Position numbers and translations under genes: made by a program
In this document: positions 5,179 through 24,444 of the stretch, piece after piece
Position numbering within the stretch: position 1 is the stretch's first letter
Layout of the letters: each line of letters starts with the position of its first letter
Origin: Halorientalis regularis
Lineage (GTDB): Archaea > Halobacteriota > Halobacteria > Halobacteriales > Haloarculaceae
Direction: 5' to 3'
NCBI RefSeq assembly: GCF_023698535.1
Contig: NZ_JALJCL010000015.1
Coordinates: forward strand, 1 to 64,000
DNA length: 64,000 nucleotides
The notes under the pieces: model-generated
Database searches by the model: none
Told to the model about the DNA's origin: nothing
The model's input: the letters and a program-made list of their open reading frames with translations, nothing else

Positions 5179-5252
5179 CTGCCCGTGCCGGCCCGGTTGC
5201 TGGGCGTGAGAAGCGACGAAAAACGGATGTAGCTGGTGACTGAAACGCCGGT

Positions 5253-7642: not shown

Positions 7643-7996
7643 ATGGAGTACGTCTGGATTCTCGGCGGCGTCGCGGTCGTCGCCATCGCGCTCGGGTGGA
7701 TCGGGTATCTCTGGCGGTGGCGGTCCGCGGAAGCCCGCGAGTCCAAGCAGGCACACGAGGCCGCCCAGGAGCGGGCCCCGCCGGTCGAACTCGGCGAGAC
7801 CTACGAGTTCGGCATCACCGAGTTCACCGACCACCACTCCGGCGACCGGGTCGCGGTCGGCAAAGTCGAGGGGTTCGTCCTCTTTACTGGGGACGTGCCC
7901 GATTCCACCGACGAGGGCGACGTGATCCGCGCGAAAGTCCTCTCGTTCAACGAGGGCCGGACCTCCGCCGACGCGACGTTCGTCGAGCAGGTCTGA
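7643..7996 (+). CDS. Membrane-anchored small OB/TRAM-like protein
   Basis: 117 residues. Residues 3-26 form one transmembrane helix, followed by a basic/charged linker. The C-terminal half (about 47-115) has the strand pattern GETYEFGITEF-x-GDRVAVGKVEGFVLFTGDVPDSTDEGDVIRAKVLSF, resembling TRAM/OB domains (compare the TRAM of aIF2-beta in this window). A membrane-tethered RNA-binding module is therefore possible, but this rests on pattern likeness only. It is monocistronic; the ABC exporter gene converges from the other side, 16 bp away. Confidence 0.6.
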   Translation: MEYVWILGGVAVVAIALGWIGYLWRWRSAEARESKQAHEAAQERAPPVELGETYEFGITEFTDHHSGDRVAVGKVEGFVLFTGDVPDSTDEGDVIRAKVLSFNEGRTSADATFVEQV

Positions 7997-8012
7997 AAGA
8001 TGGCTCCCCGCC

Positions 8013-9941
8013 TCAGTCGTCGTCCGCGTCCGTTTTCGCCCGCCGCTCCGTCGCGCGTTCGACGAACTCCTCGGGTAACTCCTCGATCTCGCCGGCCTGA
8101 ACCGCCCAGAGGTTGGCGTAGAGGCCGTTCTCGGCCAGCAGTTCCTCGTGCGTGCCGCGCTCGACGATCCGGCCGTCTTCGAGGACGACGATCCGGTCGG
8201 CGTCCTTGATCGTCGAGAGGCGGTGGGCGATGGCGAAGGTGGTGCGGTCCTCGGCGAGGCGGTCCAGCGACCGCTGGATGAGCATCTCCGTCTCGGTGTC
8301 CACGTCGCTGGTCGCCTCGTCCAGCACGAGAATCTCGGGGTCCTTGAGGATCGCCCGCGCGATGGCGATGCGCTGGCGCTGACCGCCCGAGAGCTTGACG
8401 CCGCGCTCGCCCACCTCCGTGTCGTAGCCGTCGGGCAGGTTCGTAATGAACTCGTGAGCCTCGGCGCGTTTCGCGGCCTCGATCACGTCCTCGCGGCCGG
8501 CATCGAAGGTGCCGTACTGGATGTTCTCGGCGACGGTGCCGTAGAACAGGAACGTCTCCTGGCTGACGTAGCCGATGGTCTCCCGGAGGCTGGGGATGGT
8601 CACGTCCCGCACGTCCTGCCCGTCGACGCGAATGGTTCCCTCGTCCACGTCGTACATCCGCATCAGGAGTTTCAACACGGTGGACTTGCCCGCGCCGGTC
8701 GGGCCGACCAGCGCGAACGTCTCGCCGCCGTCGACGGTGAAGGAGACGTCTTCGACGACCGGATCGTCCTCGCTATCGTAGGCGAACGTCACGTCCTCGT
8801 ACTCGACGCGCCCGTCGTCGAGGACGAGTTCCTCGGCGGCGGGGTCTTCGGCGATGCGGGCGGGCGTGTCCATCAGGCCGAAGATGCGCTCGGCGGAGGC
8901 CCGCGCCCGCTGGTACATGTTGATGATCTGTCCGAACTGCGCCATCGGCCAGATGAACCGCTGATTGAGCAGAATGAAGGTGACGAACTCGCCGACGTAC
9001 AGCGGTTCGGTGAAGGCACCGGGCGGGCCGTTGATGACCCAGAAGCCGCCGAGGGCGAAGGTGAGGACGAACCCGACGCCGGAGATGATCCGCAGGCCGG
9101 GGAAGAACTTGATCCGGGTGTCGATGGCGTCCCAGTTGGCGTCGAAGTAGTCCCGCGAGACGTCCTCGACGCGCTCGGACTCGTAGCGCTCGGTATTGGC
9201 ACTCTTGATGACCTGGATACCGCCGAGGTTGTTCTCCAGGCGGGAGTTGACCTGGCCGACGGAGGAGCGAACGTCGGCGTACTTGGGCTGGATGGTCTTG
9301 ATGAACCGGTAGGTGAAGTACGCGATCAGCGGGACCGGCACGAGGGCGATCACGGCGAGTTGCCAGTTGATCCAGAAGAGGATGGCGGCGATCCCGGCCA
9401 CCATGACCGCCAGCCGGAACGCGGAGTTCATCCCGTCGTTGAGGAAGTTCTCCAGCCGGTTCACGTCGTTCGAGAGGATCGACATCATCTCGCCGGTCTG
9501 CTTGTCGGCGAAAAAGTCCATGTCCAGCCGCTGCATCTTGTCGTACGTGTCGGTGCGGATGCCGTGCTGGATGTGCTGGGCGAAGCCGTTCCAGCCGAAG
9601 TTGCGCACCCAGTGGAAGGCCGCCCCGATGAAGAACGCGCCGGCGATCAGCCCCACGGTCAGGAGGAGCTGGGCGTCGCGGGTCGCCGGCAACCACGCGT
9701 CGGGGACCAGCAGCAGGGTGAACGACTTGTCGTTGCGGACGATGGCGTCGACCGCCAGGCCGAGCAACACCGGCGGCAACAGATCGAGAACGCGTGCGAC
9801 GACGCTGCCGAACACGCCCACGCCGAACCACGACAGGTTCTCGCGGCCGTACTCGGCGAACAGCCGGCGCATGGGGTTGTCGGCCCGCTCCCGAGCCTCC
9901 TCGAACGGATCGTCGTCCGTGTCGGCGGCACCGATATCCAT
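8013..9941 (-). CDS. ABC-type exporter, fused permease and ATPase (MDR/MsbA-like)
   Basis: 642 residues from the start MDIGAADTDDDPFEEARERAD; the frame is open about 55 codons upstream, but that part is Arg/Pro-rich shadow sequence. Residues about 50-345 are the six-helix ABC transmembrane domain. The ATPase follows with Walker A GPTGAGKST near 410-418, signature LSGGQRQRIAIARA near 515, Walker B ILVLDEATSDVD near 540 and the H-loop AHRLSTI. Full half-transporter layout indicates a homodimeric exporter of lipid, peptide or drug; the substrate is unknown. No partner gene lies nearby. Confidence 0.9.
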   Translation of the reverse strand: MDIGAADTDDDPFEEARERADNPMRRLFAEYGRENLSWFGVGVFGSVVARVLDLLPPVLLGLAVDAIVRNDKSFTLLLVPDAWLPATRDAQLLLTVGLIAGAFFIGAAFHWVRNFGWNGFAQHIQHGIRTDTYDKMQRLDMDFFADKQTGEMMSILSNDVNRLENFLNDGMNSAFRLAVMVAGIAAILFWINWQLAVIALVPVPLIAYFTYRFIKTIQPKYADVRSSVGQVNSRLENNLGGIQVIKSANTERYESERVEDVSRDYFDANWDAIDTRIKFFPGLRIISGVGFVLTFALGGFWVINGPPGAFTEPLYVGEFVTFILLNQRFIWPMAQFGQIINMYQRARASAERIFGLMDTPARIAEDPAAEELVLDDGRVEYEDVTFAYDSEDDPVVEDVSFTVDGGETFALVGPTGAGKSTVLKLLMRMYDVDEGTIRVDGQDVRDVTIPSLRETIGYVSQETFLFYGTVAENIQYGTFDAGREDVIEAAKRAEAHEFITNLPDGYDTEVGERGVKLSGGQRQRIAIARAILKDPEILVLDEATSDVDTETEMLIQRSLDRLAEDRTTFAIAHRLSTIKDADRIVVLEDGRIVERGTHEELLAENGLYANLWAVQAGEIEELPEEFVERATERRAKTDADDD

Positions 9942-10002
9942 CACCAACGCAACGTGCTGGCTCCGCAAAAGCCCCTCGCTTGGCGACCGCCAGCCCCGAT
10001 AC

Positions 10003-10653
10003 TCAGCCCCCAGCGTCGGGATTCGGGGTCGCGTCCGCGGTCGCGATCCGTGCCGGAATCGCCACCGTATCGCCCACCGCGAGCCCCGTGCGGTTGGCGT
10101 AGCCACGGTTCACTTCCAGCACGTACTGCCCGTACCCTGGATACCCCGTGAGGTCGTCGCCGCTCTCGCCGGGTTCGGTGGGTGCGTGGTGGATGGTCGT
10201 GATCGTGCCGTTCGGGGCGACAAAGAGGATGTCCAGTGAGAAGTCCATGTCCCGCATGACGTAGGTGTGCGTGTCGGGTTCCTCGTAGACGAACAGCATG
10301 CCCTCGCTCTCGTTCAGGCGCTCGGTGTCGCTGAGGCCGGTGATCCGCTCGCTCCGGTTGTCCGCTATCGCCACCGTGACTCGTCCCAGCACTGTCCCGT
10401 TCTCCGCCCGGAGTTCGACCTGTGGTCCCGGCTGGTCGTCCTCCTCGGGCGTGTCGGTTTCGGAGCCCGCGGTGGTCGCAGGCGTTCCTGCGCCAGTCGC
10501 CGTCCCGGCCGGTGAACCCGTCGTTTCGGGTCCGGACTGGTCGGCCGCCGGGGACGTGGCCGTCGGCGTTCCGTCGCCGGGGGTCCCCGCACATCCCGTC
10601 AGGAGGAGCGCGCAGACCACGAGAACGGCCGCGAGCCTCTGTCGTCGTGACAC
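10003..10653 (-). CDS. DUF192 lipoprotein
   Basis: 216 residues from GTG at 10651-10653. The signal peptide ends with lipobox LLTGC (Cys about residue 20), then a Thr/Pro/Gly-rich linker to about residue 75, typical of haloarchaeal surface lipoproteins. The DUF192 domain follows: RITGLSDTERLNESEGMLFVYE, MRDMDFSLDILFV, GTITTIHHAPTEPG, YVLEVNRGYA. DUF192 proteins are small beta-barrels of uncertain function. It is a close paralogue of the next gene upstream in its transcript (start 50 bp beyond), so the two form a tandem duplication. A longer frame beyond the GTG lacks any signal sequence. Confidence 0.85.
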   Translation of the reverse strand: MSRRQRLAAVLVVCALLLTGCAGTPGDGTPTATSPAADQSGPETTGSPAGTATGAGTPATTAGSETDTPEEDDQPGPQVELRAENGTVLGRVTVAIADNRSERITGLSDTERLNESEGMLFVYEEPDTHTYVMRDMDFSLDILFVAPNGTITTIHHAPTEPGESGDDLTGYPGYGQYVLEVNRGYANRTGLAVGDTVAIPARIATADATPNPDAGG

Positions 10654-10702
10654 GCAGGGAACGTCCACGTGTGCCGGAATAAAGCGTGCGGTCGGTGCGA
10701 GA

Positions 10703-11206
10703 TCAGCCCACGGTGTCGGGAATCTCGACGCTGTCGCCCTCGTCGATGCCGGTCGCGTTCGCGTAGCCACGCGGGACTTCGAGGACGTACTTCCCGCGGC
10801 CGCGGTATTTGATGAGTTCGTCGCCGCTCTCCCCGGGTTCGGTGGGGGCGTGGTGGATCGTCGTGATCGTGCCGTCGGGCGCAACGAAGACGATGTCCAG
10901 CGGGACGGACATGTTTCGCATGATGTAGGCGCGTGTCTCGGCGCTCTCGTGGACGAACAGCATCCCTTCGCCGGGGTCGAGGCTGGCGGTCTCGCTGAGG
11001 CCGACGTAGCGTTTGCGGTCGGTGTCGGCGATTCGCACGTCGACGGTTGCGAGCGTCGTTCCGTTGTCGTCCCGGACGGTGACGGTCGCGTTCTCGTAGT
11101 CGCCGGGGTCGAGCGGTGGCGCGAGGACGCCCGACTGGACGACGAGGGCGACGGCGAGGACGAGGAGCAACCCCGCCGTGATCGCGTTGACGGTCCGGGA
11201 CGGCAT
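10703..11206 (-). CDS. DUF192 membrane-anchored protein
   Basis: 167 residues. One N-terminal hydrophobic segment (about 8-28) lacks a lipobox, so this copy is probably anchored by an uncleaved helix. The DUF192 core is VGLSETASLDPGEGMLFVHE, MRNMSVPLDIVFV, TITTIHHAPTEPGESGDEL, YVLEVPRGYANATG. It shares nearly all core motifs with the lipoprotein gene just downstream, showing tandem duplication followed by change of anchoring. ATG at 11206 lies 84 bp from the divergent tRNA-Val. Confidence 0.88.
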   Translation of the reverse strand: MPSRTVNAITAGLLLVLAVALVVQSGVLAPPLDPGDYENATVTVRDDNGTTLATVDVRIADTDRKRYVGLSETASLDPGEGMLFVHESAETRAYIMRNMSVPLDIVFVAPDGTITTIHHAPTEPGESGDELIKYRGRGKYVLEVPRGYANATGIDEGDSVEIPDTVG

Positions 11207-11290
11207 GGTCGAGCGGTGGGTCGTCGGTGGGGTAAGGCTGTCGACCCAGAAAGTAAGCGTTATTCTTCGGCGTGGATTTGGACCGAATGC

Positions 11291-11364
11291 GGGTTCGTGG
11301 TCTAGTCGGTTATGACGCGGCCTTTACAAGGCCGAGATCGGTGGTTCGAATCCGCCCGAACCCA
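11291..11364 (+). tRNA. tRNA-Val (anticodon UAC)
   Basis: A 74-nt cloverleaf: acceptor GGGTTCG pairs with CGAACCC, discriminator A at 11364, D-arm TGGTCTAGTCGGTTATGA, anticodon stem CGGCC/GGCCG with loop TTTACAA giving anticodon TAC, T-arm GGTGG-TTCGAAT-CCGCC. There is no encoded CCA and no intron. Its 3' half is repeated five more times downstream. Confidence 0.95.
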
Positions 11365-12010
11365 CTTGCTGCTGCGAACGACCCGTGAGCAGCAGCAATG
11401 TGTGAGGGCGGTTCGACCCTGCCAGTCGCGCGCAGCGGATGTGAGCACGTCTGGCTCCGGTTCGAATCCGCCCGAACCCACTGCCTCGCGGCACGAACAA
11501 CTCGTGAGCGCCGCGGAAAGCGTTCGGCGGATTCGCGGCCCAGAGGACGAGCGGAGCGAAGTCCTCGCGGTTCGAATCCGCCCGAACCCACTGTTGCTGG
11601 ACGCGAACAACTCGTGAGCGTCGAGCGAGGCGTGAGTGGCGGTCGAACCAGGGAGCGGGAGGTGAGTGAGCGAGAGCGAACGGACGGGAGCGACTGAGGT
11701 TCGAATCCGTCCGAACCCACTGCCTCGCGGCACGAACAACTCGTGAGCGCCGCGGAAAGCGTTCGGTGGATTCGCGGCCCAGAGGACGAGCGGAGCGAAG
11801 TCCTCGCGGTTCGAATCCGCCCGAACCCACTGTTGCTGGACGCGAACAACTCGTGAGCGTCGAGCGAGGCGTGAGTGGCGGTCGAACCAGGGAGCGGGAG
11901 GTGAGTGAGCGAGAGCGAACGGACGGGAGCGACTGAGGTTCGAATCCGCCCGAACCCACTGCCTCGCGGCACGAACAACTCGTGAGCGCCGCGGAAAGCG
12001 TTCGGTGGAT
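11365..12010 (+). repeat. Array of tRNA-Val 3'-end copies with alternating hairpin spacers
   Basis: After the tRNA, the 22-nt T-arm plus acceptor segment recurs at 11459-11480, 11569-11590, 11698-11719 (one base change), 11808-11829 and 11937-11958. Spacings are 116, 110, 129, 110 and 129 bp: an A-B-A-B order with a partial third A, i.e. a 239-bp tandem unit. Each spacer opens with a hairpin around a conserved loop of the form GAAC-(A/G)-AC-(C/T)-CGTGA while the stem sequences differ. It is noncoding; long open frames through it on the minus strand are artefacts of the repeat. Confidence 0.9.
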
Positions 12011-12064
12011 TGAACGAGCGAGCGGTGCGAGCGAGTTTCGCGTGGTCCGAATTCGCCCCGTTTC

Positions 12065-12508
12065 TCAGGGCTTGATCCACCAGAGCAGGTCACGCACCAT
12101 CTGGCGGGCGGTGTCGACGTGAGAGTCGGCCTCGGGGTCGCCGGTGCTGTCGGCGCGCTGGAGCAGGTCGTCGACCTGCTGGGTGCGGTTGCGCACGGTG
12201 GCCTTCGATGGGGTGCCGGTCGAGAGGTCCCGCGAGATGCTTCGGGCTTCGCGGATGCGGTGGTCCTGTTTCTCCGGTTCCTGTTCTTCGACCATGTCGA
12301 GATGCCAGCGCACGTCCCGCATGGCGCGTTCCGTCCGGTCGTCACCGTCCGAGCCGTCGGCCGGCCCGGCGTTCGCGCTCGGGCCGACGCCGGCGTCGGC
12401 GTCCTGTGCGCGCCGGACGCCACGGCCCTCGACCGATCGCTTGTTGCGCTTGGCATTCCTGATCGAGCGGTCCCCGTCTCCCCCCCGGGAGTCCCTCCGA
12501 TCTCTCAT
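12065..12508 (-). CDS. Haloarchaeal hypothetical protein, hydrophilic
   Basis: 147 residues beginning MRDRRDSRGGDGDRS; the frame upstream is open but overlaps the peroxiredoxin region without likeness. The N-terminal 70 residues are charged and disordered-looking. The C-terminal part (about 75-147) is helical: RAMRDVRWHLDMVEEQEP, TVRNRTQQVDDLLQRADSTGDPEAD, ending in LLWWIKP. I do not recognise the family. It lies between the tRNA-Val array and peroxiredoxin, on the same strand as the latter and 61 bp downstream of it, so possible cotranscription. Confidence 0.6.
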   Translation of the reverse strand: MRDRRDSRGGDGDRSIRNAKRNKRSVEGRGVRRAQDADAGVGPSANAGPADGSDGDDRTERAMRDVRWHLDMVEEQEPEKQDHRIREARSISRDLSTGTPSKATVRNRTQQVDDLLQRADSTGDPEADSHVDTARQMVRDLLWWIKP

Positions 12509-12569
12509 CACACCGTCCTGTCTCGTCCATCGCAAAAGGGTTGTCGCTCGAACTGGTTCCGCTGGTAGG

Positions 12570-13061
12570 TTAGCCCTGCGCTGTGGTGGACAGGGATCGC
12601 ACGGCGTCCAGTAGCGGACCGAGGTCAGGGACTTCCGTCGCCTCGGTGGCGACCGCGCGGTACCGGACCGTCCGTGACTCGTCGAGGACGAAAAACGCCC
12701 GTCGCGGGAGGCCGGGCTGGCGGTGCCAGTAGTCGTACTGCACGTCGTAGTTGCGAGTGACGCGGCCGTCAGTGTCGCTGAGCAGCGGAAAGGGGATGTC
12801 GTGGCGGCCGATGAACTCCTCGTGGGCGTAGAGACTGTCCTGTGAGATTCCGAGGACGGAGAACTCGGGCTGGAACTCGAACCACTCCACGTCCCGGAGC
12901 GTACAGAGCTTCTCCTTGCAGAGCGGGCTGAAATCACACGGGTAGAACGCCAGTAATACCCCGCCACCGGCCGCGTAATCACTGAGACGGTACACCCCGC
13001 GTTCGGTCCCGCGCAGGCCCGGGAACTCGAAATCCGGTGCTTGCTCGCCTTCGCCGACCAT
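12570..13061 (-). CDS. Peroxiredoxin (Bcp/AhpC-TSA family)
   Basis: 163 residues from MVGEGEQAPDFEF. The redoxin fold is clear: AFYPCDFSPLCKEKLCTLRD carries the peroxidatic Cys at position 48 with a second Cys at 53, the spacing seen in Bcp-type atypical 2-Cys enzymes; an extra C42 precedes. SVLGISQDS and FPLLSDTDG are further family motifs. It is a thiol peroxidase that detoxifies hydroperoxides in the cytosol. The open frame runs further upstream (toward 13244), but MVGEGEQAPDF is the family start. Confidence 0.9.
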   Translation of the reverse strand: MVGEGEQAPDFEFPGLRGTERGVYRLSDYAAGGGVLLAFYPCDFSPLCKEKLCTLRDVEWFEFQPEFSVLGISQDSLYAHEEFIGRHDIPFPLLSDTDGRVTRNYDVQYDYWHRQPGLPRRAFFVLDESRTVRYRAVATEATEVPDLGPLLDAVRSLSTTAQG

Positions 13062-13216
13062 TTGCCCGGACTGGTGCGTCGCGACGCTTGAACGTCGGGA
13101 CCGATTCGAGCCTGGGAACGGGGCTAACTGCGGTTGCGGTGGCGAGTCCAGTCCGGCCGGGCTTTCGAAATCCTTTTTTCTACCACCCTCAACTGTCGGG
13201 ATGCGCACGACGGCGC

Positions 13217-13290
13217 GCCGCCTTAGCTCAGACTGGGAGAGCACTCGACTGAAGATCGAGCTGTCCCCGGTTCAAATCCGGGAGGCGGCA
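13217..13290 (+). tRNA. tRNA-Phe (anticodon GAA); left attachment site of the integrated element
   Basis: A 74-nt cloverleaf: acceptor GCCGCCT/AGGCGGC, discriminator A at 13290, D-arm GCTCAGACTGGGAGAGC, anticodon stem CTCGA/TCGAG with loop CTGAAGA (anticodon GAA), T-arm CCCGG-TTCAAAT-CCGGG. A TATA-like ATCCTTTTTTCTACC precedes it. The segment from the anticodon stem to the acceptor end reappears at 24361-24444, so the tRNA remains intact on the left of the element. Confidence 0.96.
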
Positions 13291-13746
13291 TACTTGTTGC
13301 GGGTCGAACCACAATCACCGCACAGCGACGTGATTCACCCGATTTCGACGGGAAATCGTCGAGGGATTTGAACCCGTCACAGCACGCGACCTCGCGCTTG
13401 CTTGCGTTTCACGAGATTCGACACGGGCGAGTACGGTAAAAGGTCGGAGACAAGTGGAAGTGGAACCGAAGTCCCCTACGGCGTACACGCATCAAGAGAG
13501 ACGCAGAGACACGCACGCTCTCCGGTTCCGTGGAACCTCCGATACATCACAGGGATGTTCGTCATCTCGACAGAGAGAACGGGGATGACGCGTTTGCTAT
13601 ACAACAGAAGACGAGAGGCGTCACGGGTGTCACAGGTTCAATCGCATTATCGTAGTGACGAACCGCGTTCAATCATCAGCACAAGTCTTCAACTGGCCGA
13701 TAGTCCACCACAGGCAGGTGACTAGAATTTCACATACTGAATCGCC
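13291..13746. other. Left end of the element, no convincing gene
   Basis: It contains an inverted T-arm-like sequence GGGATTTGAACCC at 13363-13375, one copy of the GTCAC-N4-GTCAC motif at 13620-13633, and purine-rich sequence around 13480-13530. A frame of about 107 codons (13402-13725) is open but has no protein-like composition. Integrase-binding arm sites would be expected here. Confidence 0.5.
13620..13633 (+). repeat. Element motif GTCAC-N4-GTCAC, copy 1
   Basis: GTCAC GGGT GTCAC, near the left end of the element and 114 bp upstream of the lipoprotein gene. Two 5-bp direct repeats stand 9 bp apart, just under one helical turn. Four more copies occur in the element. Confidence 0.6.
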
Positions 13747-14163
13747 ATGCTCCGACGAAAATACATCCGTGCTGTTGCGAGCGCCGGAGTTCTCGCAATC
13801 GCCGGATGTGCCAGCGATGACGACGACAGCACAGACGAGCAGGCGACCACGACGCCCACACCAACAGATACGCCGACACCAGAACGTGAAGTGCTCGTTG
13901 ACGAGACGCTGTACTACCGGGAGCGATACCCGTTCGACCTGCAAGCGGGACAGCGACTCGTAGTTTCAGTAGACGTAGAGCGTGGCGGGCCCGTGATTGT
14001 AGACGTAGCGGATGCCGAAGCGGGGGAGTCGTTATTCAGTGACCGCGTCGAGACGGAGGAGACGTTCGAGGTCGATATACAGAGCACCGGGACGCACTAC
14101 GTCACGTTCCAGAACGTCTCAGAGACGACCATCGAAATCACGCTCGTAGAAGCGACCGGCTGA
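13747..14163 (+). CDS. Small lipoprotein, probably Tat-exported
   Basis: 138 residues. The N-terminus MLRRKYIRAVASAGVLAIAGC has a twin-arginine start and a lipobox AGC (Cys at 21), the standard layout of haloarchaeal Tat lipoproteins. An acidic/Thr-Pro linker (24-50) follows. The C-terminal 85 residues are predicted beta-rich, with YYRERYPFDLQAGQRLVVSVDVERGGPV and TGTHYVTFQNVSETTIEITLV, resembling haloarchaeal domains built like Emp24/GOLD or PPC folds. The function is unknown; surface location is likely. It is the first gene inside the element's left end. Confidence 0.75.
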   Translation: MLRRKYIRAVASAGVLAIAGCASDDDDSTDEQATTTPTPTDTPTPEREVLVDETLYYRERYPFDLQAGQRLVVSVDVERGGPVIVDVADAEAGESLFSDRVETEETFEVDIQSTGTHYVTFQNVSETTIEITLVEATG

Positions 14164-14564
14164 CTCTCATTCCCCTTGATTCCGAAATCCCATCGACCGG
14201 CGAAATGAATACTCTCTTTCTCGCTTCGAGGGCGTCTGAGCGACTAGTTGCGGTCATTGCCTCCATGTTCGTTTCGCGGAGACGGGAGCAACCCGCACTG
14301 TTTGTTTATGAATGAACCCCTCCTCAATACGCTCAAACGATTTTTGTCTTTCTTTTGAAGATTTAATCTACTTAGGCGTGTACGTGAATTCGCGGGCTGG
14401 TTTCGTACTCTGATTACTAGACATCCTTATACGCCCTAATATCCAGATACGGCGCGTATTTGGGAAGACGAATAGATACCATATCGTCTCGAACTGTTTC
14501 GCGTGGAATTACGATGTCTGGTTGTCCGTCGAGGTGCTGCCGTTCACTTCCACAGAGGCAAACC
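14164..14564. other. A/T-rich intergenic stretch within the element
   Basis: The centre, about 14330-14420, is notably A/T-rich. On the minus strand a 49-codon frame (14417-14566) is open but shares its start CATG with the plus-strand gene at 14565, so at most one of the two is likely expressed. Nothing else is recognised. Confidence 0.4.
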
Positions 14565-15223: not shown

Positions 15224-16600
15224 ATGGAAACCGAGAACTCATCTGACGATACGGCATCCAGCGACCTAGGCGTTTGCACCGACGGTGAGAATACCCAAGG
15301 CCCGGAATACTGGCGACAGCAGTTGGTTGACGCTGACAACAACCGAGAGCGGGCCTACACCGCGAGTAAGTGGATTCGAGCGCGCGGAGATATCGAACCC
15401 GTCGAAGGAAGTCAACTTCGTGCCTACAACGATGACGGGACGTGGAGCGAGGACGGAACGCAGGCGCTCCGAGAGCGACTCGGTCCCATACTAAGAGAGA
15501 ATTGGGGTAGGCGTGTTCTGAATAAAACAAAGGAGCAGTTGCTCGTAGACGGTCTTAGAGACCGTGACGAGTTCGGGATGCCGAGCGGGAAGGTCGCGGT
15601 TGAGAACGGTCTTCTTGACATACAAAACGGCGAACTTCGGGAGATAAGGCCTGATGACCGAGTCCTTTGGAAGTTACCGACTGAGTACGACCCTGAGGCT
15701 GATTGTCCGCGCTTCCGACAGTCATTGAGAGAGTGGTTACCGGACGAAGGGGCCCGCAAGAAGGTTCAGGAGTTCGTCGGTTATGCGCTCGACTTCAACA
15801 ACACGGCATACGAAGTCATGTTGATGCTCGTCGGTCCTACACGAACGGGCAAATCAACGTTTCTCGATGTCATAGACGCTCTTTTCGGAGCGGATAACAC
15901 CACGTCGATGTCGATTCAGTATCTCGCAAACGAGAAGTGGGGGGTTGCAGAACTCGAAGACACACCGCTCAATATCCGTCGTGACCTCGATTCGAGTGAT
16001 ATCCGCAAAGAAGGTGCTGTCAAGGAACTCGCAAGCGGCGAGCCGATGAAAGCGGAGCGTAAGGGACAGGATCCGTATACAATCCGTCCCCAGACGAAAC
16101 ATATGTTCTCCGCGAACCAGGTCCCCGGATGTGACCAAACCGACGACGCATTTTACAATCGTTGGTTGATGGTGAAATTTAACGAGCAGGTGCCCAAGGA
16201 TGACCGGGACGAAAACCTAGACGCGAAGTTAACGACTTCGGAGGAGTTATCCGGGGTTTTGAATTGGGGATTGGAGGGGTATCAACGCCTACAACGTCAG
16301 GGATGCTTCACTGCTGAGCGCAGTCCTGAAGAAACGAGAGCACTCTGGCAAAAGAACGGGGCGTCAATCGAACAGTTCATCCACGAACACGTGGAAACCG
16401 ACCCGAATAAAACAACACCGAAGGAGATGATGTATGCTGCGTATCAAACGTTCGCCGAGGAACATGGCGTCACACCCGAGGACAAAGGCAAGTTAACGAG
16501 GAAACTCACTACGCTTGACGGTGTTGATACCCGCCAACGACGATTTGAAAGCGGGCGCAAGAGAGTGTACGAAGGGGTGAGACTAGCGAATTGGAACTGA
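15224..16600 (+). CDS. SF3 replication helicase, D5/P4-type primase C-terminal family
   Basis: 458 residues. D5_N-like region about 100-190 (VENGLLDIQNGELREI, FVGYALDF), then the SF3 ATPase: Walker A GPTRTGKST with K210, B-motif region around 245-260, and sensor/C motif HMFSANQVPGCDQTDDAFYNRW. The C-terminal 80 residues resemble the winged-helix end found in these proteins (LTRKLTTLDGVDTRQRR). There is no primase (AEP or TOPRIM) domain at the N-terminus, so it must pair with a host or cryptic primase. It probably unwinds the element's origin and starts its replication. Confidence 0.88.
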   Translation: METENSSDDTASSDLGVCTDGENTQGPEYWRQQLVDADNNRERAYTASKWIRARGDIEPVEGSQLRAYNDDGTWSEDGTQALRERLGPILRENWGRRVLNKTKEQLLVDGLRDRDEFGMPSGKVAVENGLLDIQNGELREIRPDDRVLWKLPTEYDPEADCPRFRQSLREWLPDEGARKKVQEFVGYALDFNNTAYEVMLMLVGPTRTGKSTFLDVIDALFGADNTTSMSIQYLANEKWGVAELEDTPLNIRRDLDSSDIRKEGAVKELASGEPMKAERKGQDPYTIRPQTKHMFSANQVPGCDQTDDAFYNRWLMVKFNEQVPKDDRDENLDAKLTTSEELSGVLNWGLEGYQRLQRQGCFTAERSPEETRALWQKNGASIEQFIHEHVETDPNKTTPKEMMYAAYQTFAEEHGVTPEDKGKLTRKLTTLDGVDTRQRRFESGRKRVYEGVRLANWN

Positions 16601-16963: not shown

Positions 16964-17040
16964 TTAGTAGTTGAAATACAGGGTTTGACTGTTTCAGAGG
17001 GTGTCAAAACGTGGTTTTAGACATTATAATTCAGTTCTGT

Positions 17041-17060
17041 AACCACAATTTCTTGTGGTT
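17041..17060. promoter_or_regulatory. Perfect inverted repeat, candidate operator
   Basis: AACCACAA-TTTC-TTGTGGTT, an 8-bp perfect dyad in the divergent intergenic space between the winged-helix repressor (start 16963) and the HhH-GPD gene (start 17095). A TATA-like ACATTATAATTC lies just left of it (about 17020-17035). Position and symmetry suit binding by a dimeric winged-helix protein. Confidence 0.55.
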
Positions 17061-17094
17061 AATGCTAAGTCGATGGAGATGTTCTGCTGAGGTA

Positions 17095-17649
17095 ATGGAC
17101 TTAGGCCGGCGCGTACTCGAACAGCAGGAACCCCTGTACGCGGAGGAAGAAGAGATGTACGAGGGTGAGGTCGCCCGGCTCGAATCGTTGCCGACCGCCT
17201 TCGAAGAGGACGAGTGGACACGCGAGGATTTGGAGTGGGTCATCGAATGGAAGGTTAGGGTGTTCACGAAGCCGACGCTGAAACACCTCGATAAAAACGA
17301 CGACGAAGAGATTCGAGCGCAAATTAACGAAGCAGTTCACGAGTCGAGCATAAGGTCGAAAGTCGAGGCGCTGACCTCCCTGACCGGCATTGGTGTGCCA
17401 GTTGCCTCGGCAATTCTCTTGTTCATCAACCCCGACCGGTTCACTGTCATCGACGAACGGGCATGGAACGTCCTACAGGAAACAGGATACCTCGCGCAAG
17501 AGCTTTCAGACGACCCCACCGTTGACGAGTACTTGCTGTATCTCGGTGCGTGTTGGACGCTTGCCAACGAGTACGACGTGAGTCTCCGAACGCTCGACAG
17601 GGCACTGTGGGTGCTTGATATCGAAGAGGACAGGAACTCCAGCGATTAA
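17095..17649 (+). CDS. HhH-GPD superfamily-like protein
   Basis: 184 residues from MDLGRRVLEQ; an upstream start at 17011 would read through the inverted repeat and gives a hydrophobic, atypical leader. The helix-hairpin-helix motif SLTGIGVPVASAILLF lies at 95-110 and is followed by RFTVIDERAWNVL, where D120 sits where base-excision glycosylases have their catalytic Asp (V-D-T/E-x2-x-R). The usual catalytic Lys of the hairpin is Val/Pro here, so it would be a monofunctional glycosylase or a non-catalytic relative. Possible roles are repair or attack on modified DNA. It is cotranscribed with the next gene (27 bp gap). Confidence 0.6.
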   Translation: MDLGRRVLEQQEPLYAEEEEMYEGEVARLESLPTAFEEDEWTREDLEWVIEWKVRVFTKPTLKHLDKNDDEEIRAQINEAVHESSIRSKVEALTSLTGIGVPVASAILLFINPDRFTVIDERAWNVLQETGYLAQELSDDPTVDEYLLYLGACWTLANEYDVSLRTLDRALWVLDIEEDRNSSD

Positions 17650-17676
17650 ATACTGTCAGGAGAAATACTACAACGT

Positions 17677-18132
17677 ATGGACGACCCCGAGCGGCCCGAA
17701 CGTCCTGGCCCCGACGCCGATGCCGCCGAGATAGCGGAGTGGATGGAGGAGGATTTTGGGCGGGCCGTTGCCGAGGGGATGGCAGACGCGGGTGACGAGG
17801 ACGACCCCGCCGACGAGCACGAGGTCGTCGAGGTAGAGATACTGAATCACGAGCGGGGCGAAGTCGTCGGGACGATAGACACGAACGGGAACCTCGACAC
17901 GGAGAGCGAGGCGCTCAGAAACGTCTCGCAGGAGTATCTCGAAGAGGGGGTTCCCGTGCTCGTGCCCACGACCTACGAGAACGAAGACGGTGAAACAGTT
18001 CACGCGGATGCAGAGGTGATGGTCGAACCAAGAACCACGGGATTCGTTCGGGCATTCGTTGACGAACTGCCGAGCCCGTTCGACTGCGAATCTGAGGCGC
18101 TTACTGACCTGCCTGTTCACGACGAAGAGTAA
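17677..18132 (+). CDS. Hypothetical acidic protein of the element
   Basis: 151 residues, strongly acidic. N-terminal ADAAEIAEWMEEDFGRAVAEGMADAG (about 13-40) is helical; the middle (48-110) is predicted beta-rich (EVVEVEILNHERGEVVGTIDTNGNLD, VPVLVPTTYENEDGE); the C-terminus has VRAFVDELPSPFDCESEALT. No family is recognised. It follows the HhH-GPD gene by 27 bp on the same strand and probably forms a two-gene unit with it. Its composition is G+C-rich, unlike the TBP-methyltransferase block that follows. Confidence 0.55.
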   Translation: MDDPERPERPGPDADAAEIAEWMEEDFGRAVAEGMADAGDEDDPADEHEVVEVEILNHERGEVVGTIDTNGNLDTESEALRNVSQEYLEEGVPVLVPTTYENEDGETVHADAEVMVEPRTTGFVRAFVDELPSPFDCESEALTDLPVHDEE

Positions 18133-18338: not shown

Positions 18339-18887
18339 TTAGTCGACGGCAAGGAGGTCCGTCACTTCGTCCCGCAACGCTGCAAACGTCTCTTCCGCTG
18401 CATCGAGGTCTGGGCTACCTGTAATCACGACACAGCCAGAAGCGAAAAGTAGAACAACGCTATTGGCTCCGGGTGGTCGGTAAATCAATCCGGGGAACTG
18501 CTCAGGCTCGTATTCCATCTTTTCGAGGCCAAGACCGATTGCGAGCGCATTGAGATTCAACGATTCACCCAGTTCCGCTGTGCAGACGAGATTCTGAATT
18601 CGGAACCACTCATCATCTGGCTCCGCAATCATCCCGTTGTCGGCAAGAAGGTTGAGAAAGCGTTCCCGTATCGCGTGTGCCTCTTCCTCTGAATCTGCCC
18701 CGGTTACGATGTATTTTCCAGTTCGATAGACGGTGATGAGCGGGGCGTCCTCCCCAAATCGCAGATACATGCCGGGATACTTTTCGGGGTCGTACTCAGC
18801 GATGGAACCGATATCGGTAGCGACTCTCTCTAAATCAAACTCGGCATCCAGCGACCCAGACCCGACGACGTTGACGATTTTGACCAT
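18339..18887 (-). CDS. TATA-binding protein paralogue 1 (element-borne TBP)
   Basis: 182 residues, the full length of archaeal TBP with two imperfect repeats (about 1-90 and 91-182). The second repeat is canonical: LNLNALAIGLGLEKMEYEPEQFPGLIYR and VVLLFASGCVVITG. The first is altered: EYDPEKYPGMYLRF and ITVYRTGKYIVTGA, so both Phe positions that normally kink TATA DNA are Tyr. It is divergent from TBP 2 with a shared repeat in the 137-bp space between. It may direct transcription of selected promoters with a host TFB. Confidence 0.9.
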   Translation of the reverse strand: MVKIVNVVGSGSLDAEFDLERVATDIGSIAEYDPEKYPGMYLRFGEDAPLITVYRTGKYIVTGADSEEEAHAIRERFLNLLADNGMIAEPDDEWFRIQNLVCTAELGESLNLNALAIGLGLEKMEYEPEQFPGLIYRPPGANSVVLLFASGCVVITGSPDLDAAEETFAALRDEVTDLLAVD

Positions 18888-18888
18888 T

Positions 18889-18982
18889 CTATGCGTAGGA
18901 GCGCTTCGTACCGTAACAGTTGTTCCCTCTTGTTACAAACTTATGTTGTTGGCTGTCCGTGACTGTGGTTGCCTATGCGTAG
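18889..18982. promoter_or_regulatory. Paired direct repeat and dyad between the divergent TBP genes
   Basis: CTATGCGTAG occurs at 18889-18898 and again at 18973-18982, one copy next to the start of TBP 1 and the other upstream of TBP 2. Between them lies an inverted repeat GTAACA (18913-18918) with TGTTAC (18931-18936). The layout suggests shared, possibly autoregulatory, control of both TBP genes. Confidence 0.5.
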
Positions 18983-19024
18983 TATCGGAAGAACACTTGT
19001 AATCCACCCCTCAAAGAATCGTAT

Positions 19025-19567
19025 ATGCCTGAATTGAGAAGTGTTGCTGCGGGAGGCGACATACAAACGCAAATAGACCTTGGAAAGTTGTCGCAGGATT
19101 TAGAAGTCCCATCTATCACATATGAGCCGGAGAGCTTCTCAGGCCTACACTTCCAATTTACCGATGATGGTCCAACAATAACATTATTTTCCAATGGCAA
19201 ATTTAGTATTACCGGTGCTCGAGATATTTCAGGAGTGGAAAGTTGTTTTGAGGAATTGATTTCAACGCTAAACGACTCTACGAACGCTGGTGTTTCTAGA
19301 CAAAGTGCAAGCCTCAATATTAGAAGTTTGAGTTACTGGCATGATTATAGACATGAACTTGATTTGGAAAATCTTGAAGATATTTTCGATGAAGATGAGG
19401 CAGAGTATAACCCTGATAATCATCCTGCGCTACTGTATGAACCAGATAAAGGAGGATTATTTATGATTTTCATGTCAGGAAAGATTGGATTGGTAGGAAT
19501 CAAACGAGATGTGGTCGCACAAGAGTTGTTTGATGAATTACTACGCAGGCTCCCGTTTGAGACATGA
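19025..19567 (+). CDS. TATA-binding protein paralogue 2, strongly divergent
   Basis: 180 residues with two TBP repeats, the most divergent of the three. First repeat: YEPESFSGLHFQFTDDGPTITLFSNGKFSITGA; second: LDLENLEDIFDEDEAEYNPDNHPALLYEP and LFMIFMSGKIGLVG. The intercalating FPG motif has become FSG in the first repeat and HPA in the second, while the F of TLFSNG/MIFMSG remains. Altered DNA contacts and promoter choice are expected. It ends 54 bp before the probable restriction endonuclease gene on the same strand, so an operon is likely. Codons are A/T-rich, unlike TBP 1. Confidence 0.8.
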   Translation: MPELRSVAAGGDIQTQIDLGKLSQDLEVPSITYEPESFSGLHFQFTDDGPTITLFSNGKFSITGARDISGVESCFEELISTLNDSTNAGVSRQSASLNIRSLSYWHDYRHELDLENLEDIFDEDEAEYNPDNHPALLYEPDKGGLFMIFMSGKIGLVGIKRDVVAQELFDELLRRLPFET

Positions 19568-19621
19568 ATCCAATTAAGCGATAGCCATCTTTAACTGGGT
19601 AAGGAACCGCGTTCAAGTTGA

Positions 19622-20416
19622 ATGTACGACCGCGAGCGATTACAAAACGTTTTAACTGGAATCAAACGGGATTTTGAGGGTGCGATAGAGGACCCAGATG
19701 ACAATCCGAATTACTCGATGATTCGGAGCCAAGAGCTGATTGGACGTATTCATTCTTTTATAATCGATCAACTAGAGAATAACGGTATTGACCAGTCAAG
19801 AATTCATGAGGATGAAGTAGTTTATGGTTATCCGAAGTCCAAGAGCCAAGATATTCTCGTACACGATTTCGAGAGCAGGCGTCCCATCGTCGGCCCTCAT
19901 ATTAGTATTAATGTGAGGAGTCAGCTAAGCTCAATTGGAAAGAACTATGATACTATATATGAACGTATATTTGCTGAATCAACAAGCCTGCATAATCGGT
20001 TCCCCTACTTGCCGTTGGGTTACTTCTTTTTACTCCCAAAGCGAGGATATGACTCTGATGCAAAGAATGACAATAGAGTAGAACGCAGCGAAGAGTACGA
20101 TATTGAGAAATATATCGACAGCTTCGCTTCTATTTCAGGGCGCGAAGACCCGAATGATGATGTTTGGAAGTATGAAGCTATCTGTCTCCTTATAGTTGAC
20201 TTTTCACAAGACCCCCCGATGATAATGGATGATATCGAGTATTATGTTGAAGAGGGTCTTGTATCAGCAGACTTCGCAGAAACCTATGGCTCTGAGGTCA
20301 TTTCGGTGGATGATTTCTTCGACAAATTAATCCGCGACTACAAACGACGATATGCTCTTGTCCATGACTTCTCATCAGATAGAGATGACCCGAATCAAGA
20401 CCTCAGTGGATATTGA
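19622..20416 (+). CDS. Probable type II restriction endonuclease
   Basis: 264 residues. I do not identify a named family, but the block EVVYGYPKSKSQDILV (65-80) followed by GPHISINVRSQLSSIGKNYDTIYERIFAES (91-120) and FPYLPLGYFFLLP resembles the core of several uncharacterised type II endonucleases. There D77 would be the first acidic residue and N97-x-R99 would stand at the usual E-x-K place, with E38 in the leading helix. The context is the stronger argument: it converges with, and overlaps by 14 nt, an N6-adenine methyltransferase gene. It is cotranscribed with TBP 2. It would cut unmodified DNA; specificity is unknown. Confidence 0.6.
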   Translation: MYDRERLQNVLTGIKRDFEGAIEDPDDNPNYSMIRSQELIGRIHSFIIDQLENNGIDQSRIHEDEVVYGYPKSKSQDILVHDFESRRPIVGPHISINVRSQLSSIGKNYDTIYERIFAESTSLHNRFPYLPLGYFFLLPKRGYDSDAKNDNRVERSEEYDIEKYIDSFASISGREDPNDDVWKYEAICLLIVDFSQDPPMIMDDIEYYVEEGLVSADFAETYGSEVISVDDFFDKLIRDYKRRYALVHDFSSDRDDPNQDLSGY

Positions 20417-22322
20417 TACCGTATTTATCGATTAGAAATTCATCAATCTGATTCTGCTCTTTTTCAGTTCGTAGGAAATCTTTCTCTTCAGAATCTAAAT
20501 CTGGAATGGAGAATGTTCTAATAAAATTCTTCTGATAGCACTGATAGTCGCCTTGAATATCTTTGCTCGTCTTCTTCATATAATAATCCATAACAGTCGA
20601 GTTTAGTACTTTATCCAGAATCTCGATATCTTCTCTTTTAGGGAAAACGGCATATCCATTACAGAATAAGGCTTCTCCATTACTATGGTGCATGAATTGG
20701 GGACCATCACTATAAGTGGGAATATATAATCGTTCACCGGTGAACTCGATGCCTTGCTTACGACCGTACTTGTACCATGGTTCGTAATCGGCACCTCCTC
20801 CTTTTTCTCGGGTCGCCAAGACATCACGGGCGTCTTCAAGATATTCGAATGTCTTAGGATATTGTTTAGATAATCTTTCAGGCGGGATAATATCATATTC
20901 GACACGGTGCCCGTTCATATCAAGCGATACTTGGGTCGAGACTTTCTGATAAGGGAAGATAATCCGCCGTTTATTTTCTTCCAGCTCTTCATCGTCGTCT
21001 ACTGTTGAGATTTTTACCAATTCCCGACAGATATCCGGTTCAATCAAGTATTCATTACCGTCGAGTTCCGTGGTATAGTAGCCGTCATGAGTTGAGTCTG
21101 CAAATACGGTGTACACGTCATCTTTCAGAGTCGCTATTCCGGTATGGATATTCGCAATTTCATCCAAACGACGGTATGATTCAATAATACTAATGTTCTG
21201 ATACTCTTCTTCATCGAGTAAGCGCCATTTCTCCGGATTCAATGAGGAATAATTAATTGATATCGAATCTTGCTCTGAAAGTGAACCGAGTACCGATTCA
21301 TCACGAATTCGGATATATTCCAACTGGCTCTTGCGCTTTTTGTCGAGGAAGGTAATCGCAGTATAGGTTAGAGCGTCCTCGAACAATAGAATCTCACCGA
21401 AATCAACAACTTTTCGAACATACTTATTATCCTGGAGGTATCTCCGGAGTCCCTCGCCAGTCAGTGTTGTAAAATAGTTTAACGGTGTGATGAGGCCAGA
21501 GATACCATCATCGTCTAACAGTCGGATAGACAGCTCTACGAAGGGGATATAGGTATTGAAATTCCCTTCACGTACCGTTTCATACTCGGCAAGAATATGC
21601 TCTTTTGTCTCCGTGGACTGTTGCTGTATCTTCACGTATGGGGGATTCCCGACCACCGCGTCGAAGCCCTGTGACATGAGCATCGGGAACTCCGCTTGCC
21701 AGTCGAGCCGAAGGGAATCCGTCTGCGAAATATTAAATTCGACTTTCTCCGGGTCCTCCCCCTGCGAGACGGCGTACAGGAGGAGAATGACTTTACTCTT
21801 ACGGATATTATCCTCAATTATATCGACTCCGTAGATGTTCTCTTGCAAAACCTCCACGGCTGACTTGTTCGTGCTGCGGTGTATTCGCTTCGTAGCTTCG
21901 AGAAGAAACGCACCGCCCCCACACGCAGGGTCGCAGACGGTATCATCACCAGAGACCGTCTCCTCCACGATGTACTCCACGATGGCCTCGGGCGTGTAGT
22001 AGACCCCGTTCAACTGACGGTCCTCCTCGTTTACAGATAACTCAAAGACACGCAGTATATCGACAAGTGATGGTGACTCCCGATTAAGTATTGACTTGGA
22101 AATTTTTCTGGCTTCCTGCGTCGAAACTTCTTCAGTATGCCTACGCAGGAAGCGATTAGAGGTATTTTGCATATTTACTGAATCTAGGTATGCTTTGGTA
22201 AGTCCTGATTCAATTTTTTCTAATCCGAACTCCTGGAGTCCGTTCAGAACCCGCTGCTTAGAGATATCAGCGGTATCCTCTTGAGTCAAATTCGCCATAT
22301 CAAGAGTAGTGCTCCCGACCAT
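20403..22322 (-). CDS. N6-adenine DNA methyltransferase (TaqI/Eco57I-like)
   Basis: 639 residues. SAM motif I VCDPACGGGAFLLEA is at 129-143, preceded by GVYYTPEAIVEYIV; catalytic motif IV NPPY is at 226-229. The second half (about 390-600) is a TaqI-like target-recognition region with WYKYGRKQGIEFTGERLYIP and FCNGYAVFP. No nuclease motif is evident, so it is a stand-alone methyltransferase that would protect sites cut by the converging endonuclease. Start may be ATG at 22322 or, with a GGAG upstream, the Met 8 codons further in. TBP 3 lies 60 bp upstream on the same strand. Confidence 0.88.
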   Translation of the reverse strand: MVGSTTLDMANLTQEDTADISKQRVLNGLQEFGLEKIESGLTKAYLDSVNMQNTSNRFLRRHTEEVSTQEARKISKSILNRESPSLVDILRVFELSVNEEDRQLNGVYYTPEAIVEYIVEETVSGDDTVCDPACGGGAFLLEATKRIHRSTNKSAVEVLQENIYGVDIIEDNIRKSKVILLLYAVSQGEDPEKVEFNISQTDSLRLDWQAEFPMLMSQGFDAVVGNPPYVKIQQQSTETKEHILAEYETVREGNFNTYIPFVELSIRLLDDDGISGLITPLNYFTTLTGEGLRRYLQDNKYVRKVVDFGEILLFEDALTYTAITFLDKKRKSQLEYIRIRDESVLGSLSEQDSISINYSSLNPEKWRLLDEEEYQNISIIESYRRLDEIANIHTGIATLKDDVYTVFADSTHDGYYTTELDGNEYLIEPDICRELVKISTVDDDEELEENKRRIIFPYQKVSTQVSLDMNGHRVEYDIIPPERLSKQYPKTFEYLEDARDVLATREKGGGADYEPWYKYGRKQGIEFTGERLYIPTYSDGPQFMHHSNGEALFCNGYAVFPKREDIEILDKVLNSTVMDYYMKKTSKDIQGDYQCYQKNFIRTFSIPDLDSEEKDFLRTEKEQNQIDEFLIDKYGINIH

Positions 22323-22382
22323 ACCTAAACGTAGTCCTTCGTCCTCATGCTGTACAATAATTAGGTCACACTCTGAGTGAGC

Positions 22383-22910
22383 TCATGAAAGACGCCCCTC
22401 TAAGCGTTCAAACGCTCTCTTTGCCTCTTGTGACGTTTTAACACCTGTAATAACGACTTTTCCGTTCGCAAAAATAACAAATGTCGTTGAGAATTCAGAG
22501 GGACGGAATACTAACCCGGGGAATTGTTCTGGTTCGTACTCCGTGTTTTCAAACCCCAATTCAATACAGAGTGCTGCGAGGTCAAAGGACCGTCCTAGGT
22601 CTGCGGTTGAGACAACATTTGAAATATCAAAGTGAGTGTCTATGTTGTCGATTCCCAGGCTATTCATAAGCCCGAGCAATCTCTGATGGGAGTCATGAAT
22701 CTCCTCTTCCGACTTCGCACCGGTAATATGAAAACTCCCTGAACGGTATAGTGCCACTGTCGGCGTATTTTCATCGAATTTAAAATATAGCCCGGGGGAG
22801 CTTTCTGACCCAAACGGAGTTACATATTCTTTCAAGTCCCTCCGAAGCGTGGACAAATCCAACTCCATATCTAAATCACCTGCTCCAACGACCTGCACTG
22901 TCTCTACCAT
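22383..22910 (-). CDS. TATA-binding protein paralogue 3
   Basis: 175 residues, two TBP repeats. First: FGSESSPGLYFKFDENTPTVALYRSGSFHITGA; second: FDLAALCIELGFENTEYEPEQFPGLVFRP and FVIFANGKVVITG. As in TBP 1 the second repeat keeps its Phe pair while the first has Ser and Tyr in place of the intercalating Phe residues. It sits directly upstream of the methyltransferase gene in the same direction (60 bp), mirroring the TBP 2-endonuclease pair. It is intermediate in divergence between TBP 1 and TBP 2. Confidence 0.88.
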   Translation of the reverse strand: MVETVQVVGAGDLDMELDLSTLRRDLKEYVTPFGSESSPGLYFKFDENTPTVALYRSGSFHITGAKSEEEIHDSHQRLLGLMNSLGIDNIDTHFDISNVVSTADLGRSFDLAALCIELGFENTEYEPEQFPGLVFRPSEFSTTFVIFANGKVVITGVKTSQEAKRAFERLEGRLS

Positions 22911-23296: not shown

Positions 23297-24316
23297 TCAG
23301 GTATCGTCAAGATACGCGCGCCGTTGTTCCATCTTCACCTGTTCGGAACGTTTGTCGTAGTGTTTGTCCAGCACGTCCATCCCCACGTTCATACGGTCAC
23401 TCACGACCTTCTCGGGGACGTCCTCGGACAAGTGGTGCGTGATTGACCCACGACGGATGTCGTGAGGACTCACGTTCGAGGGGCACTTACTGTAGTGTCC
23501 GTAATCGGTCGCCTCGCACTCATCGGGGTCACGACCCACAGGACAATCACCACCGTAGAAGCACGGACGAGTGACGAGATACACCGCGTCCCGAATTGAC
23601 GACGCCTGCATCCGACCGTTTTCCGTCGTCAGCACCGGTTCACGCCCGTAGTCGTCAGTCACGTCATGACGGTTGTGGTCAATCCAGTCATCGATTACAC
23701 GACACGTCTCCGCGGTCAACGCGACGAGACGCTCCCCCTCCTCGCCGTTCTTTAGGGGCGTGCCCATGTCGGGACGGTGTTCGAGAAGGAGTGATTTGTT
23801 TTCGCCGTCGTAGTCGTCAACGTCGAGTGACCGCAGTGCCCCGAGACGCATCCCCGTTTGCCAGAGGATTTCGAGAATAACGTGCGGGCGAGAGGCATAT
23901 TTGAAGCGTCGCAGGTACGAGAGCAGTTCGTCTGCATCTTCACCGTCGAGAATACCGTTCGCCTGTTCGTCATGCTTCTTCAACACCGGCATCACAATTT
24001 TGTCGTGTAATCCTTTGGTGACGGCATCGACGGATTCGCACCATCGAATGAAGACACGAAGAGCGTCGAGGTTGCCTTCGAGCGTGATGGGTTTGAGGTC
24101 GCCGTCGTCACGACGCCACGTTTTGAACTGTTGCAGTTTCCGTCCGGTGAGGTCGTTCATGTTGTCGAGACCTTCAACGTTCTCACACCACCGGATGAAG
24201 TGCTTGAGACGGTAGTGATACCCGTCGAGGGTGCTTTGCGACACTTCGTGTTTCCGCGCGTTGAGGTACATCTCCTTCGCCTCAGCGGGTGAGATAGGTT
24301 CGAGCGTTTCGTTCAT
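23297..24316 (-). CDS. Tyrosine recombinase (integrase) of the element
   Basis: 339 residues. N-terminal SAM-like core-binding domain about 15-110. In the catalytic domain R157 (TGMRLGALRSL), H285 and R288 (SPHDIRRG) and nucleophile Y320 (LDKHYDKR) are visible; the second basic residue lies around 190-197. A stretch with four cysteines (252, 258, 266, 278) between catalytic motifs could bind zinc, a feature seen in some haloarchaeal integrases. The start codon lies only 45 bp from the right copy of the tRNA-Phe end, the standard place for a tRNA-targeting integrase. Confidence 0.92.
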   Translation of the reverse strand: MNETLEPISPAEAKEMYLNARKHEVSQSTLDGYHYRLKHFIRWCENVEGLDNMNDLTGRKLQQFKTWRRDDGDLKPITLEGNLDALRVFIRWCESVDAVTKGLHDKIVMPVLKKHDEQANGILDGEDADELLSYLRRFKYASRPHVILEILWQTGMRLGALRSLDVDDYDGENKSLLLEHRPDMGTPLKNGEEGERLVALTAETCRVIDDWIDHNRHDVTDDYGREPVLTTENGRMQASSIRDAVYLVTRPCFYGGDCPVGRDPDECEATDYGHYSKCPSNVSPHDIRRGSITHHLSEDVPEKVVSDRMNVGMDVLDKHYDKRSEQVKMEQRRAYLDDT

Positions 24317-24360: not shown

Positions 24361-24444
24361 TCGAGCTGTCCCCGGTCCCCGCGAGCGCAGCGAGCGGGGA
24401 AGCGAGACGCCAGTCTCGCGCTTTTCAAATCCGGGAGGCGGCAT
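24361..24444 (+). repeat. Right attachment site (attR), tRNA-Phe 3' end interrupted by a 48-nt hairpin insert
   Basis: TCGAGCTGTCCCCGGT (24361-24376) equals the tRNA from anticodon stem into T-stem; the match resumes at 24425 with TCAAATCCGGGAGGCGGCAT. The intervening 48 nt (24377-24424) form two hairpins: CCCCGC/GCGGGG and GCGAGAC/GTCTCGC. The interruption lies at the T-loop. The left copy in tRNA-Phe is uninterrupted. Confidence 0.88.

Follow-up and report, generated by a model that had tools for sequence, protein, structure and literature searches.

What business does a basal transcription factor have inside a restriction-modification (R-M) system? The question is raised by 64,000 nucleotides of Halorientalis regularis (GCF_023698535.1, contig NZ_JALJCL010000015.1, positions 1-64,000 of the forward strand; hereafter the window), in which an integrated element gathers three genes for TATA-binding proteins (TBPs) around an endonuclease gene, R, and a methyltransferase gene, M. 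A first-pass annotation had described this arrangement, and the coordinates of the five open reading frames (ORFs), the gaps between them, their Pfam matches and the attachment repeats of the element all agree with it. TBP1 (18339-18887, minus strand, 182 residues; Pfam TBP 1.5e-42) stands divergent from TBP2 (19025-19567, plus strand, 180 residues; 1.7e-25) across 137 nt. TBP2 precedes R (19622-20416, plus strand, 264 residues) by 54 nt on the same strand, R converges on M (20403-22322, minus strand) with an overlap of 14 nt (20403-20416), and M is preceded at 60 nt, again on its own strand, by TBP3 (22383-22910, minus strand, 175 residues; 1.4e-38). Each of the three carries two TBP repeats (PF00352). 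TBP-like matches occur at only three loci elsewhere in the genome (C33:61 kb, C43:171 kb and a pair at C33:316-317 kb), so the cluster in the cassette is not a matter of chance. On the evidence assembled here, a basal transcription factor seems to have been turned into a dedicated regulator of defence, and we think it rather probable that such TBPs serve defence genes much as controller (C) proteins serve bacterial R-M systems.

The argument begins with the identity of the two enzymes. R has no convincing match in Pfam or NCBIfam and no solved relative was found for it by sequence search, while PADLOC assigns it to REase_II (1.3e-36). An AlphaFold2 model built from 27 homologues (pLDDT 84) aligns best, by VIA-align, with PspGI (Z 10.7 over 187 residues, root-mean-square deviation 4.7) and next with BbvCI B2 (Z 10.2), followed by NucC, BstEII, PfoI, AgeI and Bse634I, all of which we take to possess the PD-(D/E)XK fold. 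Foldseek alone returned no match to the model below 1e-3, so the predicted fold rests on the VIA-align Z score together with the PADLOC assignment and the pairing of genes. That pairing is consistent: among relatives of R recovered from genome contigs, mostly of Bacteroidota with several from non-halophilic archaea, a homologue of M lies beside the R homologue in 46 of 51 loci, generally convergent and with a small overlap as in the window. M itself is predicted to be an Eco57I-class N6-adenine DNA methyltransferase (Pfam Eco57I, PF07669, 2e-31; PADLOC MTase_II 5.8e-137), with CamA and M.BseCI as its nearest solved structures. Judged by sequence and model, R is thus a real Type II restriction endonuclease of nuclease fold with M as its cognate enzyme, and the earlier identification of the 264-residue protein as an endonuclease, which had been named beforehand as one of two points on which the annotation could fall, has held. 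No homologue of R was confirmed in viral contigs. In the Bacteroidota relatives L197, L207, L211, L214 and L220, two tandem R genes accompany a single M, an arrangement that may point to a heterodimeric enzyme or one with an asymmetric site.

It is the slot directly upstream of R that speaks most clearly to the role of the TBPs. Across 50 testable homologous loci, 40 hold a small helix-turn-helix (HTH) gene that directly precedes R on its strand, usually with overlapping frames; 38 of these are of the Xre/Cro type and two, from Methanoperedens and a Woesearchaeote, are archaeal winged HTH proteins resembling MarR and HVO_A0261. In the window the slot is occupied by TBP2, and no HTH controller is found there. 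This comparison is the strongest single indication of a TBP standing in for a C protein, and it suggests that part of the first-pass annotation, which gave the TBPs the work of a C protein, was well aimed; that the TBPs in fact regulate the system, delaying R and giving R and M distinct TBP-dependent promoters, is an inference.

Since the copy in the window is the only homologue of R among 391 haloarchaeal genomes, recurrence was tested as an association of TBPs with methylation-based systems in general. The first loci to be read were those of the plasmid TBPs nearest to TBP3, picked by their similarity to it and not by context, and in 11 of 11 annotated loci opened a DNA methyltransferase gene was present, either as the TBP's neighbour or elsewhere in its operon or defence island. 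In Halobacterium NRC-1, tbpC comes after a methyltransferase gene and a helicase gene, which make up the operon VNG_RS12725-12730; in one locus of the bacteriophage exclusion (BREX) type the TBP sits between the methyltransferase and PglZ, and in haloarchaeal BREX-5 loci it is divergent from pglX. A TbpC-like profile was then made from 13 defence-linked TBPs and run on the 391 genomes, yielding about 90 matches of at least 188 bits followed by a plateau at or below 182. From the upper group 86 loci were compared with 36 controls (34 from the plateau and two ordinary TBPs of the H. regularis genome). A DNA methyltransferase gene lies within about 6 kb of the TBP at 78 of the 86 TbpC-like loci and at none of the 36 ordinary ones (Fisher 1.6e-23, a value that overstates independence, since the controls are less diverse and fall into only 5 clusters at 70% identity and 12 at 85%). 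The methyltransferase screen included HsdM and IIG seeds taken from the loci themselves, and with these the count among the controls was still zero. Collapsing the TbpC-like proteins at 70% identity leaves 45 clusters, 42 of them methyltransferase-positive, and HsdR is present at 16 of the 86 loci, again with none among the controls.

The systems so accompanied are Type I, IIG, BREX and DISARM-like, and the haloarchaeal association, as read from gene neighbourhoods, is therefore with methylation-based defence at large. The proposed pairing of TBPs with R and M genes does recur, so that the annotation also stands on the second of its two points, although its partners are wider than the Type II R-M systems that had been envisaged. 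Even the eight methyltransferase-negative loci include one with a PglZ gene (L102, with a near-identical ORF in L093), one with a PLD-SNF2 helicase (L126), one with a helicase (L120) and one that is a contig of just 3 kb (L131). Approached from the opposite direction, a reading by hand of the best-scoring Eco57I methyltransferases, roughly 150 in number, finds a TbpC-like gene within 8 kb of about 22. The association extends to tailed haloviruses: HRTV-9 encodes a IIG enzyme and then a TBP (L226, 235-4531), and HJTV-2 a TBP, a winged HTH protein, an N4 methyltransferase and an Eco29kI-like nuclease (L227, 3965-7242).

What distinguishes these TBPs from their ordinary counterparts is a residue signature. 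At the four positions of the intercalating phenylalanines, ordinary haloarchaeal TBPs read FFFF in 36 of 36 cases, whereas TbpC-like proteins read YYFF in 75 and variants of it in the rest. Both groups keep the C-half stirrup, EPEQF, without exception (99 of 99 and 36 of 36). In complexes of TBP with TFIIB or its archaeal counterpart TFB, it is the C-half stirrup that contacts the partner factor. None of the window TBPs keeps all four phenylalanines. TBP1 (YYFF, 273 bits) and TBP3 (SYFF, 248 bits) belong to the TbpC-like class by profile score and by loss of the N-half pair; TBP2, at 100 bits, does not, being a divergent protein that reads FFHF, with a degenerate C half (stirrups EPESF in the N half and NPDNH in the C half). 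In the TBP tree the ordinary proteins form one group (Shimodaira-Hasegawa-like approximate likelihood-ratio support of 99) and the TbpC-like proteins fall outside this control clade; over the rest of the tree the types of defence system are clustered (38 changes against 79 when shuffled, a figure to which near-copies contribute). Outside the haloarchaea the class was not found: across 101 other genomes of the phylum the best score was 173 bits, short of the 188 that mark it. Like TBP2 and TBP1 of the window, the two TBPs of L078 and of L130 are degenerate in opposite halves, the first in the C half (FFSP) and the second in the N half (YYFF). A complementary pattern of this kind (YYFF beside FFSP or FFHF) was considered as a general feature and set aside, as only 3 of 14 loci with two TBPs show it, and it is not used as support here.

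The three TBPs of the window do not share one history. GC content is 0.41-0.46 for TBP2, R, M and TBP3, 0.54 for TBP1 and 0.53-0.62 for the element backbone, and the nearest relatives of TBP1 (in L116, 90% identical, and in L131) adjoin the same backbone ORFs as in the window; TBP1 therefore travels with the element, and TBP2 and TBP3 with R and M. By composition and neighbourhood the cargo is TBP2-R and M-TBP3, so that the cassette of three TBPs proposed at the outset keeps two of its members and gives up TBP1 to the mobile backbone. The cargo of L116 is a Type I system, against the Type II system of the window, and TBPs that are 90% identical yet accompany unrelated enzymes are more easily understood as regulators than as fitted subunits.

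How might such proteins work? In the mechanism that we propose, the usual HTH controller of a Type II R-M system would have been replaced by TBP paralogues, with TBP2 leading R, TBP3 leading M and TBP1 facing TBP2 over a shared promoter region. The stirrup expected to dock TFB is kept while the half that intercalates DNA is altered (in TBP2 it is the C half that has changed instead); an intact stirrup could still recruit TFB, and the altered half would shift the choice or strength of promoters. Dedicated TBPs could then build pre-initiation complexes on, or block, the few promoters of their own system, acting by activation or by competition with the host TBP, and each mobile defence system would bring its own basal factor. 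The outcome would resemble that of bacterial C proteins: when M and R (or other effectors) are made, and in what ratio, would be set after entry into a new cell, and expression would become less dependent on the TBP set of the host. Extended to the whole class, the proposal is that haloarchaeal TbpC-like TBPs, their DNA-binding half rebuilt, are promoter-selective controllers of mobile methylation-based immunity (R-M, BREX and DISARM-like), replacing the HTH controllers of the same systems elsewhere; to this broader form we give belief and doubt in equal measure. A local lead is offered by two copies of CTATGCGTAG (at 18889 and 18973, spanning 18889-18987) in the divergent promoter region between TBP1 and TBP2, a possible operator, with a degenerate copy, CCTAAACGTAG, abutting the start of M (22324-22334). 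Allowing two mismatches, there are nine occurrences of CTATGCGTAG in 64 kb, three of them within the 251 nt of cassette gaps.

Several observations weigh against a controller role. Bacteria, to our knowledge, have no TBPs anyway, which tempers the slot comparison; the R-M family has a single haloarchaeal copy, so that this comparison amounts to one case; and by the search used, four of six archaeal loci from outside the haloarchaea (L180-L185) have neither an HTH gene nor a TBP in the slot. The CTATGCGTAG motif, or CTAN4TAG, was not found at other TbpC loci except as two near matches. In many systems the TBP closes its operon, after a methyltransferase or helicase gene and with 4-nt overlaps, a position unusual for a C protein. 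Lastly, knockout of tbpC in NRC-1 gave no apparent phenotype (PMC2121645).

That terminal position, tightly overlapped with a helicase or methyltransferase gene, would suit TBPs that act as structural or DNA-sensing subunits, bending or recognising incoming DNA for a methyltransferase, helicase or nuclease without starting transcription. Such a role, which we consider unlikely, would also accord with the presence of one TBP per large enzyme in some systems (L063, L066, L078, L085 and L130), with the TBPs of TOTE and TALON systems (PMC12458937) and with the binding of hybrids by the TBP-like domain of RNase HIII, as cited in a passage of PMC3710099. It sits uneasily with the nearly identical TBP1-type proteins that accompany unrelated sets of enzymes, with the invariance of the EPEQF stirrup and with the bacterial relatives of the window R-M system, which use an HTH regulator in the slot and no TBP.

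A further departure from the controller reading, and a clearly improbable one, would extend the action of the TBPs past their own operon, to viral or host promoters that they bind or block during infection as transcription-level immunity or host shut-off, with the link to methylation reduced to co-location in defence islands. Loss of half of the intercalating set could indeed yield a TBP with a dominant-negative effect, loci with two TBPs are common, and haloviruses carry TBP genes beside R-M genes; yet the TBP specifically adjoins the methyltransferase, at no more than 300 nt in 44 of 78 loci, and does not lie just anywhere in the island, and proteins from systems of one type tend to group together on the TBP tree. 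Least credible of all is that the TBPs are decaying passengers whose co-occurrence with methyltransferases, both being common on haloarchaeal plasmids and islands, carries no function. TBP paralogues are abundant on such plasmids and the authors who described tbpC thought it possibly nonfunctional (PMC4230888), but methyltransferases are absent from all 36 controls, a set that includes many loci from small contigs or plasmids, the class has a conserved residue signature of its own outside the control clade, and operonic overlaps recur.

The controller reading is sharpened by comparison with described systems. As in Type II R-M systems with an HTH C protein, such as Kpn2I (PMC6237814), a small regulatory-type gene lies directly upstream of R; in the window, however, this gene encodes a TBP, M has an upstream TBP of its own and a third TBP is divergent. 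NRC-1 tbpC (PMC4230888, PMC2121645) is plasmid-borne, dispensable in the laboratory and lacks the N-half phenylalanine pair, a loss already described for TbpC-like paralogues (PMC4230888), and TBP1 and TBP3 score with its class; that work gives no link to defence, and TBP2, degenerate in the other half, lies well outside this class. TOTE and TALON likewise encode a TBP inside a defence locus but are bacterial and combine TPR-cold-shock, OB or NERD-nuclease genes with helicase genes (PMC12458937), and a scan of ten element proteins showed none of these domains. BREX systems with BrxR (PMC9122589) place a gene for a dedicated DNA-binding regulator beside a methyltransferase defence operon, as the TBP is placed here, although BrxR is a WYL-domain protein and haloarchaeal BREX-5 has instead a TBP divergent at pglX. 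No earlier report of an association between TBPs and methylation-based defence was found in open-licence papers, so priority is uncertain; a survey of archaeal R-M systems makes no mention of TBPs or C proteins (PMC10609329), nor one of BREX of TBPs (PMC12839542).

If the controller reading is true, a basal transcription factor can become a dedicated switch for immunity. The association gives NRC-1 tbpC, so far without a known role, a concrete and testable one, and would explain the clustering of tbpC-type genes on plasmids and mobile elements. The R-M family of the window offers a natural comparison, in which bacteria use an HTH controller, some archaea a winged HTH protein and a haloarchaeon a TBP, and a TBP that combines the EPEQF stirrup with the YYFF pattern could serve as a marker in the search for new defence systems of haloarchaea. 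Candidates for a TBP-specific promoter element come from BREX-5, where the divergent regions between pglX and the TBP in L052 (5868-5985) and L053 (5863-5985), together with the region upstream of the TBP in L084, share the short blocks AATGTTGC and CACCAGA in different hosts.

The element that carries the cassette spans 11.2 kb at a tRNA-Phe gene (ARAGORN, 13217-13291, plus strand), whose 3' end, TTCAAATCCGGGAGGCGGCAT, forms the left attachment repeat (13271-13291) and recurs as an exact 21-nt copy at the right (24424-24444, plus strand). Between these repeats lie a P4-type primase/helicase (15224-16600, plus strand; NCBIfam primase_Cterm 1.2e-55) and a tyrosine integrase (23297-24316, minus strand; Pfam Phage_integrase 2.6e-10, NCBIfam XerC 4.2e-18). 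Two further backbone ORFs, on the plus strand, encode a 212-residue protein with a weak resemblance to OGG-type DNA glycosylases (17011-17649; Pfam OGG 0.11), whose homologues adjoin TbpC-like TBPs in L075 and L116, and a 151-residue protein (17677-18132) with homologues in L075, L116, L131 and L134. The two (17011-18132) recur in these loci beside TbpC-like TBPs with differing restriction cargo, and the backbone is, from its gene content, evidently a mobile platform on which defence systems are swapped.

Other arrangements met along the way deserve record. L063, L066, L078, L085 and L130 share a layout of methyltransferase, TBP, a gene of about 3 kb and TBP. TBPs accompany defence genes once more in the H. 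regularis genome, at L040 (G000:C33:309000-325000; 542-14210), a DISARM/Druantia-like hybrid in which DrmD-like and DrmMI-like genes are followed by two TBP-like genes, one of which has a single clear repeat, and then by a DruE-like helicase. Within the window, ARAGORN also reports an unexpected 97-nt tRNA with a CTA anticodon (tRNA-Pyl) at 981-1077, possibly intron-containing or mis-called.

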